The notes beneath the pieces are model-generated. The model saw nothing but the letters and a program-made list of their open reading frames with translations, ran no database searches and was not told the origin of the DNA. Source: Rhizobiales bacterium Y(2018) (GTDB lineage: Bacteria > Pseudomonadota > Alphaproteobacteria > Rhizobiales > Aestuariivirgaceae). Taken from it: a DNA stretch of 64,000 bases. The stretch lies in assembly GCA_005502925.1 (NCBI GenBank), contig SCPD01000008.1, positions 186,001 to 250,000 on the forward strand. The letters are read 5' to 3'. The position numbers and the translations under genes were made by a program. Each line of letters starts with the position of its first letter. Position 1 is the stretch's first letter. Positions 36,771 to 44,253 of this stretch are shown in pieces.

Positions 36771-37352
36771 ATGAAGGCAGTTCGTTTTCCGAAGCTCGTG
36801 ACACCACGCCTCTTGCTTCACGCGCCGAGCGAACGGGATATTCCGGCATGGTTTGCGCGTGCGACGGATGTCGAAGCCGCATCCCTCGCCGGCGACCCAG
36901 TTCCCGACGATATAAGCTCAGGCGAGCGATGGCTGGCCCGTTCGCGTCAGAGGTTCGCTGACGGTCAGGCAATCCAGTGGTCCATAGACCGCACAAAAAT
37001 ATCTGACGCGATCGGGACAATAACTCTGTCCTTCAGCGCAACCGACGCCAACGCAGCCGCGTTGGGATTTGTGCTGGCGCGTGCGCATTGGGGGCTCGGA
37101 CTGGGCAGCGAGGCGGCGCGCGAAATCCTCCGTTACGGGTTTGAAATTCTGGCGCTTGAACAGGTGGAGGCCGAGGCGGCGGCGCGTAATTCCGCTTCGC
37201 TTCGGATATTGGTGAAGCTCGGCTTCAGACATATCGGGAGTTTCATCGATGAGTCTGACGGCGAGCCTTGCGAGCGTTTTGTCCTCGTCGGCGGAAAATG
37301 GCGGAGAGACCGGGATTCGAACCCGGACGGCCTTTCGGCCTCGGCGCTCTGA
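36771..37352 (+). CDS. GNAT acetyltransferase whose 3' end runs into a tRNA relic
   Basis: A 193-residue GNAT N-acetyltransferase of the RimJ/RimL type: VTPRLLLHAPSERDIPAWF, ALGFVLARAHWGLGLGSEAAREILRYGF (acetyl-CoA loop), ARNSASLRILVKLGFRHIG. The last residues (about WRRDRDSNPDGLSASAL) are encoded by the antisense of the tRNA-like sequence at 37299-37371. The normal C-terminus probably ended near this point, so the gene has probably been fused to, or truncated by, the end of the tRNA array. The start is ATG 36771; an upstream in-frame start at 36699 overlaps another small gene and is less likely. Target unknown. Confidence 0.8.
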   Translation: MKAVRFPKLVTPRLLLHAPSERDIPAWFARATDVEAASLAGDPVPDDISSGERWLARSRQRFADGQAIQWSIDRTKISDAIGTITLSFSATDANAAALGFVLARAHWGLGLGSEAAREILRYGFEILALEQVEAEAAARNSASLRILVKLGFRHIGSFIDESDGEPCERFVLVGGKWRRDRDSNPDGLSASAL

Positions 37353-37371
37353 TCCGCTGAGCTACGAGGAC
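37299..37371 (-). pseudogene. Chimeric tRNA relic (5' Arg-like, 3' Ser-like)
   Basis: The 5' part, GTCCTCGTAGCTCAG through GAGC, resembles the acceptor strand and D arm of an alphaproteobacterial tRNA-Arg(CCU). The 3' part, a GGCCGAAAGGCC variable-arm hairpin, a T arm (CCGGG TTCGAAT CCCGG) and acceptor TCTCTCCGCCA, is tRNA-Ser-like. The two acceptor strands do not pair and only 19 nt lie between D and T arms, so there is no anticodon arm. This is a recombined, non-functional relic at the left boundary of the array. The antisense strand encodes the GNAT C-terminus. Confidence 0.7.
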
Positions 37372-37382
37372 GCGGGGCAGGC

Positions 37383-37456
37383 TGGAGGTGTGGAGGCGAG
37401 TCGAACGCCTCTTCATGGCTTTGCAGGCCAGCCCGTAACCGCTCCGGCACCACACC
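37383..37456 (-). tRNA. tRNA-Cys (GCA)
   Basis: Acceptor GGTGTGG pairs CCACACC, discriminator U, CCA encoded. The anticodon loop CTGCAAA gives GCA. The D arm (GCCGGAGCGGTTACGGG) is Cys-like. It is separated from the relic by 11 bp. Confidence 0.9.
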
Positions 37457-37864
37457 TTGGAACTATTTCGTAGAAAAAAATCGTCTCGAGAGGGAACCAG
37501 TCGCGCTTTCGGAAGTTGGGTTCATACAGCTGGACGCAAGGAAGCAATTCAATGCAACCAGCAGTGTGGAAAGCCCTGATTGAAAAATCGGGGCTTTCTG
37601 CGTTGGGCATCATTCAGCACAAGAAAACGGCGGCGCATGCAAGGCCGCGCGGACAGTACAAGGGCTCGGCTACCATTTCGTTGGTCAAAGCGGGAAATCG
37701 GAAAAACCGCATTGTTCCCCCTCCTGTCGTGTCCGATTGACACGCGTCAGCCTTGCAGTCGTCAACGTGTCCACTCGACGGGAGGTTCCTGAAAGTTGCG
37801 CAAGCGCCTTTCGGCGCTTGCGCATGCTGCCGGTACATCCGCGGTCGGCACTATTGTTGCTGGA
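37457..37864. other. Gene-free 408-bp spacer with two strong hairpins
   Basis: No convincing coding sequence. It contains an 11-bp stem with one G-U pair and a GAAA tetraloop (37571-37596, AAGCCCTGATT / AATCGGGGCTT) and the 11-bp hairpin at 37798. It separates tRNA-Cys from the HNH gene inside the tRNA array. Confidence 0.5.
37798..37823 (-). terminator. Hairpin downstream of the HNH gene
   Basis: A perfect 11-bp stem, GCGCAAGCGCC / GGCGCTTGCGC, with a GAAA tetraloop on the minus strand, about 40 nt after the HNH stop. There is no U-tract, so it could be a terminator or an RNA-processing/stability element. Confidence 0.45.
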
Positions 37865-38401
37865 TCAAGTCTCCAATTCTACGTCCCAATAGAGATAGTC
37901 GTTCCAGCTCTCATGCAGGTAGTTGGGTGGGAACGACCGCTTGGCGGCGAGGAGCTCATGCGGGGACGGTTCACGCGGTGGCGTGACCGGACGCATGGCG
38001 GAGAACTTGTCCTTGGCCTGGTTGCAGGGCGAGCAGGCCGCGACGATGTTCTCCCAGGAGGTGACGCCACCGCGGCAGCGCGGCAGGACGTGGTCGAAGG
38101 TCAGATCGGCCGCCGCGAACTTGCCACCGCAATATTGGCACTTGAAGCGGTCGCGGAGAAAGACGTTGAAGCGCGTAAAGGCCACGCGTTGCGCCAAGGG
38201 TTGATAGTGCCGCAGCGCCACGACCGAAGGCAGGCGGATCTCGGTCGAGGGGCTACGCGCGACGGCATCATACTCGGCCACGACCGAGAGCTTCTCCGAC
38301 AGGACGGCGCTCACCGCGTCCTGCCAGGGCAGAAGCGAGAGCGGAAAGTAACTCAACGGCCGGAAGTCCGCGTTGAGCACGAGGGCAGGGTGGTCTTGCA
38401 T
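37865..38401 (-). CDS. HNH endonuclease
   Basis: A 178-residue HNH nuclease. The N-terminal domain begins MQDHPALVLNADFRPLSYFPLSLLPWQDAVSAV. The HNH core has a zinc ribbon and catalytic residues: CQYCGGKF, DLTFDHVLPRCRGG (D-H), SWENIVAACSPCN (N, C-x2-C). This type is widespread in alphaproteobacteria. Here it lies between tRNA-Cys and a CAU tRNA, on the same strand as the tRNAs; HNH genes are a reported companion of bacterial tRNA arrays. The ATG has GGAG at 7 nt. Confidence 0.88.
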   Translation of the reverse strand: MQDHPALVLNADFRPLSYFPLSLLPWQDAVSAVLSEKLSVVAEYDAVARSPSTEIRLPSVVALRHYQPLAQRVAFTRFNVFLRDRFKCQYCGGKFAAADLTFDHVLPRCRGGVTSWENIVAACSPCNQAKDKFSAMRPVTPPREPSPHELLAAKRSFPPNYLHESWNDYLYWDVELET

Positions 38402-38425
38402 GGCGAACTCCGGGTTGAATGACGG

Positions 38426-38497
38426 TGCGCGCCCCCGGATTTGAACCGGGACCGAGGCGGTTATGAGCCGCCGGCTCTGCCGTTAAGCTAGACGCGC
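38426..38497 (-). tRNA. tRNA with CAU anticodon (Met or Ile2)
   Basis: Acceptor GCGCGTC pairs GGCGCGC (one G-U); anticodon stem GGCGG/CCGCC with loop CTCATAA; T arm CCCGG TTCAAAT CCGGG. The next three bases are CCG, so CCA is not encoded. The D arm and G1-C72 pair rule out initiator tRNA. Whether it is elongator Met or lysidine-modified Ile is not decided. Confidence 0.85.
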
Positions 38498-38504
38498 CGG
38501 TGAA

Positions 38505-38579
38505 TGGCGATCCTTGCGGGACTCGAACCCGCGACCAACGCATCGACAGTGCGCTGCTCTACCCCTGAGCTAAAGGACC
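38505..38579 (-). tRNA. tRNA-Asp (GTC)
   Basis: Acceptor GGTCCTT pairs AAGGATC (one G-U), discriminator G, CCA encoded. Anticodon loop CTGTCGA. Canonical class I. Only 7 bp from the tRNAs on both sides. Confidence 0.92.
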
Positions 38580-38586
38580 TATAGTT

Positions 38587-38672
38587 TGGAAGACCAGGTG
38601 AGACTCGAACTCACGAAGGCTTTCGCCGGCGGTTTAAGAGACCGCTCCCTTTGCCACTCGGGGCACTGGTCT
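38587..38672 (-). tRNA. Class II tRNA with Lys anticodon CTT (non-canonical)
   Basis: Acceptor AGACCAG pairs perfectly with CTGGTCT; discriminator U; CCA encoded. The anticodon stem GCGGT/ACCGC has loop CTCTTAA, anticodon CUU (Lys AAG). A 14-nt variable region (CGGCGAAAGCCTTC) forms a GGC-GAAA-GCC arm, and the D arm has the Ser-like GAGTGG. A long variable arm is a Ser/Leu(/Tyr) feature, so body and anticodon disagree. All stems pair, so it is not simply degraded. Confidence 0.8.
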
Positions 38673-38677
38673 GGGAT

Positions 38678-38767
38678 TGGGGGACCGGGCAGGAGTCAAA
38701 CCTGCGTTGTGGCTTGCGCCAACCTGATTAAAAGTCAGGGCCGTTCGGTCACTACGGTAACCGGTCC
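38678..38767 (-). tRNA. Class II tRNA with Lys anticodon TTT (non-canonical)
   Basis: Acceptor GGACCGG pairs perfectly with CCGGTCC; discriminator C; CCA encoded. The anticodon arm CCTGA CTTTTAA TCAGG is a typical tRNA-Lys(UUU) arm. The variable region is 17 nt with a TGGC-GCAA-GCCA arm, so the body is class II. The T loop is TTTGACT rather than TTCGANT, i.e. C56 is replaced by U. It is 5 bp from the CUU tRNA. Confidence 0.8.
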
Positions 38768-38790
38768 GAGATTTGGGACGCATTCCAATT

Positions 38791-38816
38791 CCCTTCTCCC
38801 GCAGGCGGGAGAAGGG
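38791..38816. repeat. 12-bp intergenic hairpin
   Basis: CCCTTCTCCCGC / GCGGGAGAAGGG with a 2-nt loop, between the caspase-TPR gene (stop 30 bp away) and the Lys(UUU) tRNA. A typical alphaproteobacterial intergenic palindrome that could terminate the caspase transcript. Confidence 0.7.
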
Positions 38817-38845
38817 AAATCCTGGTGTGCGCGGTTCGACGAAGT

Positions 38846-41818
38846 TCAGCGCAATCCGTTCATGCGCGCCAGGATATGGTCCTTGGTTGCGGCATAGACG
38901 GACTTGTCCTCGGTGCGGGACGCCGCCTTCTCGATCAGGTCCAAGGCGATCTGGTAGGCTTCCAGCGCGCTCTTGCGATCATTGTTGGCCTCCCAGACAT
39001 AGGCCGACTCGACATGTGCATTGGCGATGTCCGACATGAATTCCGGATTGCCGGGCTCGATGGCCGCGGCCTGCTCGGCGAAGCTCCGGGCGGATTTATA
39101 GAGATCGAGCGCGCGGTTGGGATCGTTCTTGGCCCAGGAGCTGCCGACCTTCATGTAATTCTTGTAGACGTCCTTGAGGGCCCAGGGCCTTTTGGGAAAA
39201 CGCTGCTCATTGGCGAGCGCCACTTCGAGCTGCTTGTCATTGGCGGCCCAATAGGACTTGTAGTCCTTCTTCACCCAATAGACGCGGGCGATGCGGTCGA
39301 GCATCACCTGGGCGTCCTGCCAGTAGATCTCCTGCTCGGGATGGGCGGCCGTCAGCTTCGCCGCGTAGCTAAGCCCTTCCTGCTCGGATTTGAGAGCGTC
39401 GTCATAACGCTTCAGTTGGATATAGGATTCCGAAATCTTGGCATAATAACCCCAGGCCTTGCGCTGCCAGTCGACATTTTTGGGGTCGAGGGCGGCGAGC
39501 TGCAGAGCGGAGGCGTGCGCCTTCTTGGTGTAATCGAGCGCCGCCTGCTCGTCGGGCACGAAAGCGTAGTAGGTCGAGAGATTGGCATAGGATGCGGTCA
39601 AGTCGCCGATCCAGAGCTTGTTGGTGGGATCGGACTTGGCCAGCGCCTCACGGATGGCGATCGTCTCATTGTGGTCGGCCAGCACCTTGTCGAAATCGAT
39701 ATTGGCCTGGTTGCCGAACCGGACCGCGAAGGCGCGGCCTTCCAACGCGCCGGCGAGGGCGCGCTGATAGGCGGTGTTCTTCGGGTCCGCCGCCACCAGG
39801 CGACGCAGGATCTCGGCCGACGACTGGTAGGAGGCAATGGCCAGCCGGTCGCGCTCTTCCTTGTTGCCCGGCGCATCGAAGATGCGACTGACCCCGCCCA
39901 CCGCCGCATAGGCGTTGGACAAAGCAAATTGGCGCTGCGGATCGTCGGGCCTGGCTTCGGCCAGCTGCTGCGCCAGTGCCAGGCCGGATTGGGCGGACTG
40001 GCCTGCCTCGGCGAGTTTCTTCGCAGCCTGCTGGACTTCGCTCATCAGGAGGAAGGTGCGCGCCATCGCCACCTTGGGCCCATCGACCGCCGGGTCGCGC
40101 TCGACGAGCTTCGCGATGACACCGCGGGCGTCCTCATAGGCCTGCAATGATTTTTCGTTGTCGCCCTGGAGCTTGTGCAGCGCGCCGATCTGCAGATAGG
40201 CGGCGGCCTCGAGCTCCAGCGCCTTGCCATCCTGTGCATTGGCCTTGGCGATCGCCTTGCGGATGGCGAGGCCCTCTTCGTAAGCGCCCAATGCTGAGGT
40301 CGAGTCGCCCTGGTCGCGCAGCACGTCGCCGAGCTTCAGCCGGCTCGCCGCGACATTGGCCTGCCACAGCGCATTGTCCGGTTCCTTACCGGTCAAGACT
40401 TGAGCGATGGCATATTGGCGCTCATAGGCCTTGCGGCCTTCGGCCAGATTGCCGACGGTCAGATAAAGATCGCCGAGGGTTTCGAGCGAGGCGAGCTGCT
40501 GCGCGCGCTGGTCGGCGGGCAGGGGATCAGCGCCAAGCTCGGCATAAAGAGCGGCCGCCTGCTCATAGCTGCCGATGGCGAGATCATATTTGAGGTCGGC
40601 GCGCGAAGCGCCGCCGCTCAGCACATGGGTCGCGGCCTCCGACAAAGTGCGCTCGAGGAAGTTCGTCTTGAGCGCGCTGCGCGAGGTGGAATCGATAGTG
40701 GCCGCCTCGGCGAGCTTGCCGCGCGCCGTGTCGAAGGCGCCCAGCGCCAGCTGCTGCTCGGCCTCCTGGCGCAGCTTCGTCACCTGCGGATCGTTGGAAG
40801 ACAAAGCGCGCATCTGGCTGCGTGTCGTCACGAAGGCGTCGGCGGCGTCGGTGAGCCGCCTGGTGCGCTGCTCGAGCGTCAGATCCTTGGCGTCGGATGA
40901 AATGAGCGCGCCGTAAAGCGGCGCCAGCGGCATGTCCTTCTCCTTGGCCAGCCGCTCGACCTCGTCGCGCAGACCGGTGGTGACATCCGCCATGGCGAGC
41001 AGCAGGCGCTCGCGTTCGGGGAGTTTTTCGACGGTCGTCGCGGCGAAGAACAGCGTGGGCAGGCCGTTCTCGATATAGGGCAGCTGGTTGCCGCGCGACT
41101 GGTCGTAGACTTCCTGCTGGACGAGGGTGAGGGCGGAGCGGATTTCGAGACCGTCGGTGCCGAGATATTTCGACAGCGCCGCGGTGAAGGGCGAATTGGG
41201 ACCCTGGCCGTCGGACGCCGTGGCGCCCGGAGCGGCGGAAAAGGCGAAGAGCACATTCTCGGCATTGCCCATGCGGCCAAGGCCGGGCCTGATGTCGAGC
41301 GGCATCTCCGGCTCTTCGGCGACGGTCGCGGCGCGGGTCGTTCCATCGCCACCGCCGCCGCCACCGAATGGATCATTGCGGCAGGCATCGAGCATGATGA
41401 GGCCGACCTTGCCGACTTCCGCGATGGTGGCGCGGATCTCATCGAGCGGCATGGCCGAGGTCTTCAGAAGATCGGCGCTGTCCGCCTTGGCGTCGGTGGG
41501 CAGCAGGAAGTTTTGCCCTGCGATCTCGACGCCATGGCCGGCGAAGAACACCAGCGCCACATCGGCGCCCGCCGCATCCTCGCGGAAGTCCTCGAGTGCC
41601 CGGCGCATGCGTTTTAGATCGCGGTTCGATTCGAGCGTCACCTCGAAGCCGAGCTTCTCCAGCGTCTTCTCGATCGCCATCGCGTCATTGACGGCGTTGG
41701 AAAGGGGGCGGATGGTCTTGTAGTCGTCGGCCCCCATCACGAGGGCGACCCGCTTTTCGGCGAGCGCATGGAGCGGAGTCACAATGATGAAGAAGGCGGT
41801 CGCAGCGATGCGCAGCAC
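38846..41818 (-). CDS. Caspase-like (peptidase C14) protein with C-terminal TPR repeats
   Basis: A 990-residue exported or membrane-anchored caspase-family protein. After a GTG start (GGGAG 9 nt upstream) comes a signal-like segment LRIAATAFFIIVTPLHALA. The caspase p20 domain follows: KRVALVMGADDYKTIRPLSNAVNDA, catalytic H95 in LVFFAGHGVEI, catalytic C146 in IMLDACRNDPF. About residues 380-990 are helical TPR-like repeats (YELAIG-type units, e.g. LETLGDLYLTVGNLAEGRKAYERQYAIA). In-frame sequence runs upstream to 41971, but that part is antisense-free leader and tRNA-His, so it is not coding. It lies inside the tRNA array on the tRNA strand. Possible roles are regulated proteolysis or defence; neither is proven. 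Confidence 0.85.
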   Translation of the reverse strand: MLRIAATAFFIIVTPLHALAEKRVALVMGADDYKTIRPLSNAVNDAMAIEKTLEKLGFEVTLESNRDLKRMRRALEDFREDAAGADVALVFFAGHGVEIAGQNFLLPTDAKADSADLLKTSAMPLDEIRATIAEVGKVGLIMLDACRNDPFGGGGGGDGTTRAATVAEEPEMPLDIRPGLGRMGNAENVLFAFSAAPGATASDGQGPNSPFTAALSKYLGTDGLEIRSALTLVQQEVYDQSRGNQLPYIENGLPTLFFAATTVEKLPERERLLLAMADVTTGLRDEVERLAKEKDMPLAPLYGALISSDAKDLTLEQRTRRLTDAADAFVTTRSQMRALSSNDPQVTKLRQEAEQQLALGAFDTARGKLAEAATIDSTSRSALKTNFLERTLSEAATHVLSGGASRADLKYDLAIGSYEQAAALYAELGADPLPADQRAQQLASLETLGDLYLTVGNLAEGRKAYERQYAIAQVLTGKEPDNALWQANVAASRLKLGDVLRDQGDSTSALGAYEEGLAIRKAIAKANAQDGKALELEAAAYLQIGALHKLQGDNEKSLQAYEDARGVIAKLVERDPAVDGPKVAMARTFLLMSEVQQAAKKLAEAGQSAQSGLALAQQLAEARPDDPQRQFALSNAYAAVGGVSRIFDAPGNKEERDRLAIASYQSSAEILRRLVAADPKNTAYQRALAGALEGRAFAVRFGNQANIDFDKVLADHNETIAIREALAKSDPTNKLWIGDLTASYANLSTYYAFVPDEQAALDYTKKAHASALQLAALDPKNVDWQRKAWGYYAKISESYIQLKRYDDALKSEQEGLSYAAKLTAAHPEQEIYWQDAQVMLDRIARVYWVKKDYKSYWAANDKQLEVALANEQRFPKRPWALKDVYKNYMKVGSSWAKNDPNRALDLYKSARSFAEQAAAIEPGNPEFMSDIANAHVESAYVWEANNDRKSALEAYQIALDLIEKAASRTEDKSVYAATKDHILARMNGLR

Positions 41819-41927
41819 GTCAGAAATCTCCCGGTCAGGTCGAGCGGCAAGACACCACGTCAATATGGCAACCGCAAGCCTGATTTTGTGCGCTCCGATG
41901 GCCAGATTTTGACCAAGGGGAAATGAT

Positions 41928-42003
41928 TGGGCCTGGCTTGAGGGCTCGAACCTCATTCTCGCGGTCCACAACCGCGCGCTCTCACCTGTTGAGCTAAACC
42001 AGG
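41928..42003 (-). tRNA. tRNA-His (GTG), lacking encoded G-1
   Basis: Acceptor CCTGGTT pairs AGCCAGG (one G-U); discriminator C; CCA encoded. Anticodon arm CGCGG TTGTGGA CCGCG. The base before position 1 is C, so the universal G-1:C73 pair of tRNA-His is not encoded (C-1 opposite C73). Confidence 0.88.
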
Positions 42004-42009
42004 GAAACT

Positions 42010-42084
42010 TGGTCCCGGCGGTCCGGATCGAACGGACGACCTACGGGTTATGATCCCGCCCCTCTACCGCTGAGCTACACCGGG
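42010..42084 (-). tRNA. tRNA with CAU anticodon (second copy, Met or Ile2)
   Basis: Acceptor CCCGGTG pairs CGCCGGG (one G-U); discriminator A; CCA encoded. Anticodon loop ATCATAA with stem GCGGG/CCCGT. The D stem has a G-G mismatch at its outer pair. The body differs from the CAU tRNA at 38426, so the two are not recent duplicates. Confidence 0.85.
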
Positions 42085-42101
42085 GAATTGGAACGCGAAG
42101 A

Positions 42102-42176
42102 TGGATCTCCCTCCTGGGTTCGAACCAGGCCGGACGGGACCAAAGCCCGTTGCCCTACCTGCTAGGCGAAGGGAGA
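42102..42176 (-). tRNA. tRNA-Gln (TTG)
   Basis: Acceptor TCTCCCT pairs perfectly with AGGGAGA; discriminator U; CCA encoded. Anticodon arm ACGGG CTTTGGT CCCGT. The 199 bp upstream of it (42177-42375) hold no feature I can support. Confidence 0.9.
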
Positions 42177-42375
42177 GGGGTCGCACGAAAATGACTCAGG
42201 CCTCGCCGGCGAATCCGTCCGATCCGCCGACTTCTCGAACCCCCTGATAGCGGCCTGCGGACTATCAGCGACCGATGGTGGCCGATCGCTTCGGGATTCA
42301 CTCCGGTCCTTCCCGAAATCCTTGGCTGAAGTCTCGGGAGTGACGTGGATTGGTATCGCCAGCTGGCGACAGTGG

Positions 42376-42459
42376 TGGCTCCTGGGGCAGGACTCGAACC
42401 TGCAAACCTTGCGGCGCCTGATTAACAGTCAGGTGCGTTTGCCATTCCGCCACCCAGGA
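42376..42459 (-). tRNA. Class II tRNA with Asn anticodon GTT (non-canonical)
   Basis: Acceptor TCCTGGG pairs perfectly with CCCAGGA; discriminator G; CCA encoded. The anticodon arm CCTGA CTGTTAA TCAGG is Asn-type and differs from that of the Lys(UUU) tRNA at 38678 by a single base. The 13-nt variable arm (GCC-GCAA-GGT) and the D arm TGGCGGAATGGC are Leu-like. Body and anticodon therefore disagree. Confidence 0.82.
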
Positions 42460-42516
42460 ATAATATTTGAAGGAGATGCGGGAGAGTGACCTCTCCAACG
42501 ACCATCTCGTAAGAAT

Positions 42517-42592
42517 TGGTGCCAGGAGTCCGTTTCGAGCGGACCTCTTCGCGGCTTCAGCGCGATGCTTTCACCAGATTAGCTATCCTGGC
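42517..42592 (-). tRNA. tRNA-Phe (GAA)
   Basis: Acceptor GCCAGGA pairs perfectly with TCCTGGC; discriminator A; CCA encoded. Anticodon arm TCGCG CTGAAGC CGCGA. The T loop is CTCGAAA instead of TTCGANT (C54), which is atypical. Confidence 0.85.
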
Positions 42593-42594
42593 TC

Positions 42595-42668
42595 TGGTGC
42601 GGATTAGCGGAATCGAACCGCTATCATCGGAGTGGCGTTCCGAGGCCCAGCCAATAGACCAAATCCGC
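42595..42668 (-). tRNA. tRNA-Gly (GCC) with C33
   Basis: Acceptor GCGGATT pairs perfectly with AATCCGC; discriminator A; CCA encoded. Anticodon arm TCGGA ACGCCAC TCCGA. Position 33 is C instead of the near-universal U. Only 2 bp separate its 3' CCA from the 5' end of tRNA-Phe. Confidence 0.82.
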
Positions 42669-42816
42669 TTGATTTTTCGATATGAAGTGGTGGACCGGTG
42701 AGGATGAAATTGAGCACCGCTATGTCACTACGAGGCCTTCATAATTTTTAGCCACATGGAACGTGCGCTACCATATCCGGTATTCTGGATGCGCAAGTCG
42801 GCTGCGGGAGCAAAGA

Positions 42817-44130
42817 ATGAAGATTTGTATCTATTGCGGCTGCGAAAAGCCGGATGAAGAGTTTTCCGATGAGCACATATGGCCAGACGCTCTGGGCGGC
42901 GACTTCCTTCCGCGCGACGTTTGGCGGACGGACGATGTTTGCCAAAAGTGCAACAGTATTTCCGGCTTGTTCGTTGACGGGGCTTTCATCCGCAGCTGGA
43001 TCGGGCAGGCAGAGCGATCGAGCGATTCTCACGAATACCTCGCCGGCAGGGGCAAGCCGGCGGCGATACCGCTCCACTATCTAGGACCGATCATGGACGT
43101 ATCGCTTCCTGCCGGTCACGTGGCCGACTTCTGGGTAGGGCCTTGTGGAGCCAACATTGTTCATATCCGACCTGACGACGGGGATGAGCAATGGACCACC
43201 TACGCGGGAGGCGACCCGCGTGGGAAGAAGTCCAAAGCGGGGCGGGCCTATATGGCCTTTACATCCGAAGATGACTTCTGGATCGCCGTCAGCCTCTTGT
43301 CGTTCCACCGCCATTTCGGACGTGCTGAGCGATTCGTGGTCAACATGGAGATTCCTGCCAACTGGCCGTTCAAAGAGCCGAACAGGTCCGATGCCGTTCA
43401 AGCCGAGGACATGAAGGTAGTCGATGCTGTGACCGGGGCCAGCCGCGCCGGGAAACAAATACACTTGCAGCCGTTGATCTCGTTGGACGTGGGCAATCGG
43501 ATGCTTGCAAAGCTCGGGCTCGCGGTCGGTTACAAGCTGCTAGGTGCCTCGTTCCTTGAAACGGAACACGGAAAAAATTTGCGCGCAGGAATGCGAGAGG
43601 CGAATTTCGAGAAACGGCAAGACATCGCCGTACGTGGCTCCGGGTTGTTCGGTCAGGCAGGCCTTGAAGCCGCGAAGGACGTCTTGGCATGGCCAGGAGG
43701 GTGGGTGCTGTTGGTCAGCGTTGTGCAGGACAGCCTCTTCCTCGGTGTGGTCGTACCCTCGGGGAAGTCAATGACCGTCTTGATCTCAGACGAAGCGGCG
43801 TTAGTGGCGACCGTTGACCCAAAGTACAAAGATGGCGCGATCTGGGTTACGGTGCCGGCGGCAGGGGAAGCGGCTGGACCTGTATTGCTCCCCGAGTACT
43901 TGGCTCATCAAACTGGGGTGAGCGCGCTGCCGGTCTTGACGACGCTGGCCTCCAAGCGAGCGGACCGGACCAATCTCCCGCCTTGTCGGCCGACCGACGA
44001 TTCGACGGCTTCCTCTTGGGGGGGCTCGAATAGTTCAATTAATGCGTGCCTTCGTCCGGTGGGTCTCGGCCAGCATTTCCCGAACGCGCGCGTGATGTTG
44101 TCCGTCGCCTTCATCGCTGCGCAGAAATGA
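42817..44130 (+). CDS. HNH-type endonuclease-domain protein
   Basis: A 437-residue protein on the strand opposite to the surrounding tRNAs. The N-terminus has an HNH/zinc module: CIYCGCEKPDEEFSDEHIWPDALGG (C-x2-C, E-H) then DVCQKCNSISG (C-x2-C, N). The remaining 370 residues are not recognised; they contain SEDDFWIAVSLLSFHRHFGRAERFVVNM and VLLVSVVQDSLFLGVVVPSGKS. The start ATG 42817 has GGGAG 7 nt upstream. It is the second HNH protein in the tRNA array. Its lower GC and different codon feel suggest acquisition. A tRNA- or DNA-directed nuclease is possible, but the target is unknown. Confidence 0.75.
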   Translation: MKICIYCGCEKPDEEFSDEHIWPDALGGDFLPRDVWRTDDVCQKCNSISGLFVDGAFIRSWIGQAERSSDSHEYLAGRGKPAAIPLHYLGPIMDVSLPAGHVADFWVGPCGANIVHIRPDDGDEQWTTYAGGDPRGKKSKAGRAYMAFTSEDDFWIAVSLLSFHRHFGRAERFVVNMEIPANWPFKEPNRSDAVQAEDMKVVDAVTGASRAGKQIHLQPLISLDVGNRMLAKLGLAVGYKLLGASFLETEHGKNLRAGMREANFEKRQDIAVRGSGLFGQAGLEAAKDVLAWPGGWVLLVSVVQDSLFLGVVVPSGKSMTVLISDEAALVATVDPKYKDGAIWVTVPAAGEAAGPVLLPEYLAHQTGVSALPVLTTLASKRADRTNLPPCRPTDDSTASSWGGSNSSINACLRPVGLGQHFPNARVMLSVAFIAAQK

Positions 44131-44176
44131 CTCGTCTGTGACTAGGGCCAGTGCGTCATATCATAGCAATTGGAAA

Positions 44177-44253
44177 TGGTGCGCCGAGCAGGATTCGAAC
44201 CCGCACTGAACTGCTTCTAAGGCAGTCGCCTCCTACCGTTGGGCTACCGGCGC
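44177..44253 (-). tRNA. Class I tRNA with Leu anticodon TAG (non-canonical)
   Basis: Acceptor GCGCCGG pairs TCGGCGC (one G-U); discriminator A; CCA encoded. Anticodon arm ACTGC CTTAGAA GCAGT gives UAG, which reads CUA (Leu). The variable loop is short, so the body is class I, while genuine tRNA-Leu is class II. The first (5'-most) tRNA of the array in transcription order. Confidence 0.8.

Follow-up and report, generated by a model that had tools for sequence, protein, structure and literature searches.

A supplementary tRNA array with class-swapped Lys, Asn and Leu tRNAs, of probable phage type, on a Rhizobiales chromosome

The DNA analysed here (the window) is a stretch of 64,000 nucleotides from Rhizobiales bacterium Y(2018) (assembly GCA_005502925.1, contig SCPD01000008.1, positions 186,001 to 250,000), and it carries an array of twelve tRNA genes in which four tRNAs have the body of the other structural class. 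Three of these swapped tRNAs, Lys(UUU), Lys(CUU) and Asn(GUU), are class II, and Leu(UAG), normally class II, is class I, with a length of 77 nt; class swaps thus run both ways inside a single array. The array tRNAs are supplementary, intact and structurally conserved between species, and the swapped Lys and Asn are closely related to tRNAs of phages, with very few such relatives among the cellular genomes that were scanned. On balance we lean towards viewing the locus as a domesticated phage-type array of spare tRNAs that the host can charge, perhaps shaped to survive tRNA-cutting nucleases: a phage-type array would have taken one chromosomal site in part of the genus, and would have been kept there by selection.

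An initial annotation, made from the DNA letters of the window, had described twelve intact tRNAs and one relic on one strand within about 7 kb, and both ARAGORN and Rfam agree with it on the twelve. All twelve genes lie on the minus strand between 37383 and 44253, at a density of 1.75 genes per kb over 6,871 bp (Table 1). Eleven of the twelve encode CCA, as had been noted, the exception being the Met gene at 38424, and the reported gaps of 2-7 nt were found again (the smallest are 2, 5, 6, 7 and 7 nt). The class II bodies of the Lys and Asn tRNAs, with arms of 17 (UUU), 14 (CUU) and 13 nt (GUU), were equally confirmed, as was the single base that separates the UUU and GUU anticodon arms, and the converse swap in Leu had been overlooked. 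With the Rfam tRNA model, 11 of the 12 reach the gathering score in a run on the window, and all 12 exceed the cut-off of 29 bits in a run on the organism's own genome, where the lowest scores are those of Lys(CUU) (44.7 bits) and Lys(UUU) (37.9 bits); with their stems conserved as well, these genes do not behave as pseudogenes. Nor are the swapped tRNAs sole copies. The genome gives 56 Rfam tRNA matches, 12 of them in the array, and the native genes outside it include class I Lys(UUU), Lys(CUU) and Asn(GUU) and a class II Leu(UAG); since ordinary copies of all four swapped tRNAs exist elsewhere, the array is supplementary to the chromosomal set, as was first proposed.

The closest relatives that we found of the swapped tRNAs are phage class II Lys and Asn tRNAs and, for Leu, phage class I Leu tRNAs, the kinship being weaker for Leu and Lys(CUU). 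In a blastn search of the array against phages (20 of 32 records listed), the matches listed include annotated tRNA-Asn genes of Pseudomonas and Brevundimonas phages, and the Asn tRNAs fetched from phages are class II; phiPsa374 also has a class I Leu(UAG). The matches listed for the Asp/Lys(CUU)/Met side look like ordinary tRNA similarity. Array Asn is 94% identical to the Asn tRNA of a viral contig of 199,865 bp (L263), and among the 13 native tRNAs that form the host side of the comparison its best match reaches 72% (Leu(CAA)); the native tRNA closest to Lys(CUU) is Tyr, at 67%. A second viral contig, L593, whose genes include an AAA ATPase, a DNA methylase and a GIY-YIG endonuclease, also has a close relative, and adjacent class II Lys(UUU) and Lys(CUU) genes also occur in the phage contigs L167 and L175.

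Pattern scans extended this comparison; they need an exact anticodon arm (GACTTTTAATC or GACTGTTAATC) plus part of the T arm, and their counts are lower bounds. Four scans of viral contigs in IMG/VR (class II and any-class, for Lys and for Asn) each found at least 120 stretches, with 80 matches listed for each. Class II Lys(UUU) was found in at least 120 stretches (ARAGORN confirms 114 of 120) and class II Asn(GUU) likewise in at least 120 (116 of 119 new loci confirmed). Among the matches listed from the any-class scans, 6 of 80 for Lys and 9 of 80 for Asn are class II, and ARAGORN confirms all 15; a pattern specific to the array's own Lys(UUU) found no viral match. Across 84,980 prokaryote species, the class II Lys pattern gave 48 stretches, of which ARAGORN confirms 14: two of these are congeners, in 10 of the 14 the stretch fetched carries at least nine tRNAs, and several could be phage contigs in their own right. 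A sample of 385 genomes of the window's own class, which is the cellular scope of the Asn scan and was covered for Lys too, contains one genome with class II Lys and one with class II Asn, the window's own both times; the any-class Lys pattern is present in 51 of 86 genomes of the class, in 50 of them as class I. As a separate observation, a Thalassospira xianhensis tRNA cluster with 88-nt genes for Lys(UUU) and Lys(CUU) adjoins an AbiE-type toxin-antitoxin pair (L327, 2536-4128; the AbiEii match has E 1e-42 and the antitoxin match falls slightly below its cut-off). Toxins that act as tRNA nucleotidyltransferases are among the relatives of AbiEii.

When the anticodon arm is masked, the best matches of array Lys(UUU), Lys(CUU) and Asn are class II Lys or Asn viral tRNAs, in a comparison set that was itself drawn through Lys and Asn patterns, and for Lys(UUU) and Asn the best match carries the same anticodon. 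Array Leu matches best to a class I viral Leu(UAA) when masked; unmasked, its nearest match is a class I viral Leu(UAG) (80.5%). The masked matches suggest descent from old phage lineages, not a local swap of anticodon arms, and the exchange of such arms on Ser/Leu-like bodies that the initial annotation had pictured becomes unneeded. Its link to mobile DNA, on the other hand, is supported, with phages as the link, and a phage-type origin of the array is in our view very probable.

The locus is shared by part of the genus, which is probably Taklimakanibacter (Hyphomicrobiales). When the Met-Asp-Lys-Lys stretch was searched against 150 relatives, 127 matched, nearly all of them by general tRNA similarity (at most 72.5 bits), and two stood out: G003 (96% over 187 bp, plus two more pieces) and G001 (94% over 90 bp). 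In G003, 11 tRNAs lie near the start of one contig (C7) and Leu, as an identical copy, near the end of another (C4), two contigs that would join at the array; the caspase and HNH genes occupy the same positions as in the window. In G001, ten tRNAs lie between flanks that match the window's. G002 has an empty site, where the flanks (window 23423 and 46789) are about 1.6 kb apart with no tRNA between them, and in G004 (87% complete) the Met-Asp-Lys-Lys stretch finds no match. The search for array synteny that had been proposed therefore shows the same locus in two relatives and an empty site in a third. The array HNH gene is an extra paralog, with two copies in the array-bearing genomes (G000, G001 and G003) and one in G002 and G004.

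Gene content turns over between these arrays. G003 has Pro and Arg genes that are absent from the window and is without the window's Phe and second Met, and G001 has its own Trp and Glu, together with Cys, Gln and Asp genes that are dissimilar to the window's. At the relic, 159 nt of G003 are absent from the window (alignment with L062, 8330-8720) and Arg(UCU) is intact in G003. The relic has no ARAGORN call; we read the alignment as a probable fusion, with its 5' part from Arg(UCU) and its 3' part from a neighbouring Ser(GCU)-like gene, the Ser(GCU) assignment coming from this same reading. In G003 this Ser(GCU)-like gene is apparently interrupted, within its anticodon loop, by the insertion of a palindromic repeat (L062, 8548-8578); at up to 3 mismatches over 31 nt the repeat occurs in 8 places in G000, 8 in G003 and 10 in G002, and at the same threshold it was found neither in G001 nor in G004.

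Against this turnover we can set the stems of the genes that are shared. Fourteen ortholog comparisons (10 with G003, 4 with G001), counted over acceptor, anticodon and T stems, comprise 238 pairs: 228 are unchanged (including one mismatched pair in the Cys anticodon stem, identical in both species), 7 show compensatory changes, 3 one-sided changes, and none is newly broken. Non-stem positions in the same comparisons differ at 24 of 633. The comparisons leave out Cys, Gln and Asp of G001, so divergent that they were taken as other genes, the Pro, Arg, Trp and Glu genes, which have no counterpart, and the Met at 42010, absent from both ARAGORN lists. The compensatory changes include two in the anticodon stem of Lys(CUU) and one in Gln against G003, and three in Gly against G001. 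Asn(GUU) is identical in three species (over 83 of 83 called bases in G001), Lys(UUU) is 100% identical in G003 and 94.4% in G001, and the flanking pieces are 73-95% identical between window and congeners. That the array tRNAs are supplementary and under selection seems to us almost certain.

The viral statistics on changes of class come from 451 loci (416 with tRNAs) fetched through Lys or Asn pattern matches, so that the fractions for Lys(UUU) and Asn(GUU) are not interpretable; they yielded 4,265 tRNAs, of which 32 with an anticodon of other than three letters were dropped, leaving 3,916 unique ones. Class was set by variable length, odd lengths being counted apart and outside the fractions (20 Gly and 16 Ile, for instance), and the sequences are related to one another, not phylogenetically independent, so that p-values throughout are indicative only. 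Class II bodies are commoner in Cys (19/100), Lys(CUU) (14/110), Thr (25/213) and Trp (9/110), and occur in 19/250 CAU and 13/186 Ile tRNAs; they are intermediate, at 3-5%, in Pro (6/174), Glu (6/185), Gln (5/161), Asp (5/151), Phe (4/111) and His (5/109), and rare in Arg (2/266), Ala (2/136), Gly (2/158) and Val (2/134). In the converse direction, class I bodies make up 109 of 296 Leu tRNAs, 3 of 215 Ser and 2 of 121 Tyr. Swaps in viral tRNAs are thus concentrated in certain isoacceptors, and within Thr they favour one anticodon: 24 of 149 Thr(UGU) are class II, versus 1 of 64 for Thr(GGU) and Thr(CGU) together (Fisher p 0.0018), and 15 of 140 versus 1 of 64 (p 0.024) when limited to the 15 of the 24 with a predicted arm stem. 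One viral contig (L110, 312-824) carries class II Thr(UGU) and Thr(CGU) with nearly the same body, beside a class I Thr(GGU).

The same tRNAs bear on charging. Among viral tRNAs ending in CCA, the discriminator is G73 in 46 of 46 class II Asn and A73 in 57 of 57 class I Leu (UAG, UAA, CAA); the discriminator base mostly follows the anticodon, which favours cognate charging. In viral Lys(UUU), a base other than A73 is found in 22 of 70 class II and 6 of 94 class I tRNAs (p 3.7e-5), and the array Lys tRNAs likewise depart from A73, with C73 (UUU) and U73 (CUU). Array Asn has G73 together with C2-G71, a pair described as an antideterminant against SerRS in E. coli tRNA-Leu (PMC9976931). All five congeners have a class I LysRS (PF01921, about 440 bits over positions 1-359 of 360); because PF01921 also matches genomes such as E. 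coli, this assignment takes its support from the score and from NCBIfam, in which NF001968 and TIGR00467 lysS_arch name the window genome's protein lysine--tRNA ligase. LysRS-1 is reported to use A73 only marginally, and E. coli LeuRS can do without the long arm (PMC9976931), whilst SerRS reads it (PMC7609411). The pattern of swaps by isoacceptor and the discriminators are what would be expected if swapped tRNAs need correct charging. Judged from these sequence features, the class I LysRS would charge array Lys, recognising its anticodon, and array Asn and Leu would be charged with their own amino acids through G73 and GUU and through A73, respectively; the array tRNAs would thus be made and would receive the amino acid that their anticodon specifies, as opposed to Ser, Leu or Tyr, and such cognate charging is probable. 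Of the two outcomes that the initial annotation had predicted, charging through the anticodon is therefore favoured by G73, U73/C73, the class I LysRS and the viral discriminators, misacylation by SerRS or LeuRS is disfavoured, and the codon reassignment that it had also raised is not supported.

What could such spare tRNAs be good for? Phage tRNAs are able to restore translation under attack by tRNA-cutting defences, among them AriB, PrrC and Septu/retron-Eco7. AriB, of the PARIS system, cleaves Lys(UUU), Thr(UGU) and Asn(GUU) between positions 40 and 41, and a contact with the tRNA D loop is predicted for it and backed by mutations (PMC12409363); PrrC targets Lys tRNA and a phage tRNA-Lys rescues (PMC11555353); and Septu and retron-Eco7 cut tRNA-Tyr in its variable loop (PMC13096335). 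When a tRNA changes class its variable arm is altered, and in the swapped tRNAs of the array the D arm is altered too. We posit that the array may be a reserve that foreign tRNA-targeting nucleases recognise poorly, because its bodies are unlike host tRNAs and four belong to the other structural class. Nuclease evasion is, though unproven, the best reason that we can offer for class-swapped spare tRNAs; that a nuclease reserve is the main benefit of the array is a tentative proposal, with the chances somewhat against it. Extended to phages, the idea would be that two-way class swapping is a structural defence against tRNA-cutting immunity: a long arm would be given to isoacceptors that are cut in the anticodon stem (the AriB targets Lys(UUU), Asn(GUU) and Thr(UGU)) and taken away from Leu, whose long arm would resemble the site at which Septu-type nucleases cut tRNA-Tyr; the swap would be of advantage only if the arm is ignored by the host synthetase, and some bacteria would then adopt the array as a standing reserve. 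This wider scheme we hold to be unlikely as it stands.

Several observations weigh against our main reading. Profiles PF13166 and PF14491, which we take to represent the PrrC and AriB families, have no match over cut-off in any of the five congeners (PF13166 has one sub-threshold match in G001). Self-immunity to the organism's own PrrC or AriB is accordingly rejected as far as these profiles represent them, and replenishment after nuclease attack, as the initial annotation had put it, is still a possible role, though it would then involve foreign or other nucleases. In array Lys(UUU) and Asn the sequence of the AriB site (UAAUC|A) is intact, so any resistance would need to come from the tRNA body, and one Septu system was found to cut the tRNA-Tyr of the phage as well as that of the host (PMC13096335). 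Viral swaps also affect Cys, Trp, CAU and Ile, and so are not confined to AriB targets. The G2-U71 pair, a LysRS-1 identity element in Borrelia (PMC9976931), is absent from the array Lys tRNAs and present in native Lys(UUU), although it is missing from native Lys(CUU) as well. The number of promoter-like matches, 3, is close to the 1.7 expected by chance, and the direction of transfer, from phage to bacterium, is something that we infer from rarity in cells.

The strongest rival is relaxed constraint, under which spare tRNAs supply codons or simply persist. Class swaps would then be close to neutral drift, accepted mainly in tRNAs whose synthetase pays no heed to the variable arm (Lys, Asn, Thr, Cys, Trp, Leu) and disfavoured in those whose synthetase reads it (Ser, Tyr) or presumably clashes with it (Arg, Ala, Gly, Val). 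The viral swap rates fit it by amino acid, being high in Cys, Trp, Lys(CUU) and Leu and low in Arg, Ala, Gly, Val, Ser and Tyr, as does the dispensability of the long arm for E. coli LeuRS (PMC9976931). Yet Thr(UGU) swaps more often than Thr(GGU) and Thr(CGU) despite the one synthetase that they share (in sequences that are not independent), and array Asn is identical in three species though its flanks differ by 5-27%; we consider this explanation of the array less than likely, if one to be taken seriously.

Two further explanations are much less probable. That the tRNAs are a leftover of mobile elements, riding with homing-type HNH genes to no benefit of the host, would account for the embedded HNH gene being an array-specific paralog, for the gene loss and relic in the window, and for the presence of HNH genes in Mycobacterium arrays as well (PMC12803027, PMC5966550); it sits badly with the absence of newly broken pairs among the 238 and the 7 compensatory ones, and with G001, where the HNH match holds a stop and the four orthologous tRNAs compared nevertheless remain sound, and we regard it as improbable. 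Still more improbable is recoding by misacylation, in which Ser, Leu or Tyr would be delivered to Lys and Asn codons, as proposed for allo-tRNAs. The resemblance among the 13 native tRNAs to Leu(CAA) (Asn) and Tyr (Lys(CUU)) speaks for it, as do a viral Tyr as second-best masked match of Lys(CUU) and A73 in 48 of 70 viral class II Lys(UUU), a base compatible with LeuRS or TyrRS. It would, however, leave unexplained U73/C73 in the array Lys tRNAs, G73 with the SerRS antideterminant in array Asn (PMC9976931), the greater frequency of other bases than A73 in viral class II than in class I Lys(UUU), and the sparing of Arg, Ala, Gly and Val anticodons.

Among the closest known systems are the tRNA-rich regions of phiPsa374 and of the Brevundimonas phages Kabachok and Bajun: all three have clusters with a class II Asn(GUU), as in the array, and phiPsa374 shares the class I Leu(UAG), its record marking Asn as 'Pseudo'. 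Unlike these clusters, the array sits on a bacterial chromosome, is syntenic in congeners and has no phage structural gene among the neighbours examined. Described from Mycobacterium and other bacteria, the tRNA array units of Tran and of Morgado and Vicente resemble it in their dense, supplementary and redundant tRNAs and internal HNH genes, which also sit in Mycobacterium arrays. By definition these units have at least 20 tRNA genes and at least 2 per kb (PMC5966550), and the array, with 12 genes and 1.75 per kb, falls short of both; it shares their frequent, non-defining traits, namely an embedded HNH gene and anticodons redundant with the native set, and the excerpts of PMC5966550 and PMC12803027 do not mention class-swapped tRNAs. 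Allo-tRNAs (Mukai 2017) are class II tRNAs with non-Ser anticodons and an 8/4 or 9/3 branch (reviewed in PMC7609411), and the initial annotation had likened the array to them; the array class II tRNAs also have non-Ser anticodons, but the acceptor/T stems are 7/5 in all twelve array tRNAs (ARAGORN drawings), so this is the wrong family and we reject the assignment. As to Ser identity elements, the array gives a mixed picture, with U73/C73 in Lys and G73 beside C2-G71 in Asn, and a uniform Ser identity is not apparent. Phage tRNAs that rescue from PARIS AriB include Lys(UUU) and Asn(GUU), the same isoacceptors as in the array (PMC12409363), and the phage tRNA escapes described in the excerpts on AriB, PrrC and Septu/retron-Eco7 depend on altered bases, on another variable loop or on dose, none of them being a swap of structural class. 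Among the open-access papers listed by full-text searches, judged by titles and abstract openings, we recognised no description of phage class II Lys or Asn or class I Leu tRNAs.

Other possible vehicles were also considered. The neighbours examined encode a sulfatase, MFS, BrkB, solute-binding, amidase, TetR, formyl transferase, GNAT and GFO/IDH proteins, and among 10 neighbour proteins compared with PHROGs there is no convincing phage structural gene, on which ground a prophage is rejected for these neighbours; one of the ten, L062:59-2761 of G003, has a weak tail-fibre match in PHROGs, but is an autotransporter in Pfam. A plasmid array is rejected as well: all eight megablast records match GNAT or caspase DNA only, and the matches listed from a more distant search (20 of 41) cover the HNH gene, the GNAT gene or the small RNA (sRNA) region. 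The array HNH protein matches PADLOC PtuB (E 2.7e-7) over little beyond the HNH domain, and we do not take it as Septu, a match of roughly that domain alone with PtuA not looked for.

Table 1. Features of the tRNA array, in window coordinates.
Feature	Position	Strand	Evidence or remark
tRNA relic, putative: Arg(UCU) 5' part + Ser(GCU)-like 3' part (variable arm, T arm, CCA)	37298..37374	-	
tRNA-Cys(GCA), class I	37383..37456	-	ARAGORN, Rfam; 100% identical in G003
Atu_At1 sRNA, between Cys tRNA and HNH gene	37646-37752		Rfam 88.4 bits
HNH endonuclease gene, 178 aa, within array	37865..38401	-	Pfam HNH
tRNA-Met(CAU), sole array tRNA without encoded CCA	38424..38497	-	ARAGORN, Rfam
tRNA-Asp(GUC)	38505..38579	-	ARAGORN, Rfam; 100% identical in G003
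tRNA-Lys(CUU), class II, 14-nt variable arm, U73	38587..38672	-	ARAGORN, Rfam own-genome run
tRNA-Lys(UUU), class II, 17-nt variable arm, C73, U56	38678..38767	-	ARAGORN, Rfam
Caspase-domain/TPR protein gene, 1041 aa	38846..41971	-	Pfam Peptidase_C14 E 9e-40
tRNA-His(GUG)	41928..42003	-	ARAGORN, Rfam
tRNA-Met(CAU), initiator-like GGG:CCC anticodon stem, paired C1-G72	42010..42084	-	ARAGORN, Rfam
tRNA-Gln(UUG)	42102..42176	-	ARAGORN, Rfam
tRNA-Asn(GUU), class II, 13-nt variable arm, G73, Leu-like body	42376..42459	-	ARAGORN, Rfam
tRNA-Phe(GAA)	42517..42592	-	ARAGORN, Rfam
tRNA-Gly(GCC)	42595..42668	-	ARAGORN, Rfam
HNH_5 protein gene, 455 aa, opposite strand	42763..44130	+	Pfam
tRNA-Leu(UAG), class I body, 5-nt variable loop, A73	44177..44253	-	ARAGORN, Rfam

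Some features of the locus stand apart from this argument. In both the window and G003, the array is divided in two by the caspase gene, which also matches the PADLOC 'caspase' model (E 4e-10) and is unmatched in the G001 array. Atu_At1 has its G003 counterpart outside the array (L062, 11046-11238), and blastn finds no counterpart of the HNH_5 gene in the G003 and G001 stretches compared, the corresponding side of G003 holding a 900-aa autotransporter gene. Candidate roles of the second CAU tRNA (42010-42084) are Met, initiator or Ile. Array His tRNA is without G at -1 and has C73 in the window and A73 in G003; the loss of G-1 together with A73 is an alphaproteobacterial trait of tRNA-His, and the missing G-1 would fit a source adapted to alphaproteobacterial hosts.

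To conclude, the purpose of phage-borne tRNAs is a long-standing question, and a recurrent, two-way change of structural class in certain isoacceptors gives it a concrete pattern, one that can be tested with known tRNA nucleases. Among the cellular genomes that were scanned, class-swapped Lys(UUU) and Asn(GUU) turn up very rarely, and this bacterial locus is a place where such tRNAs are retained under selection with no recognisable phage nearby.

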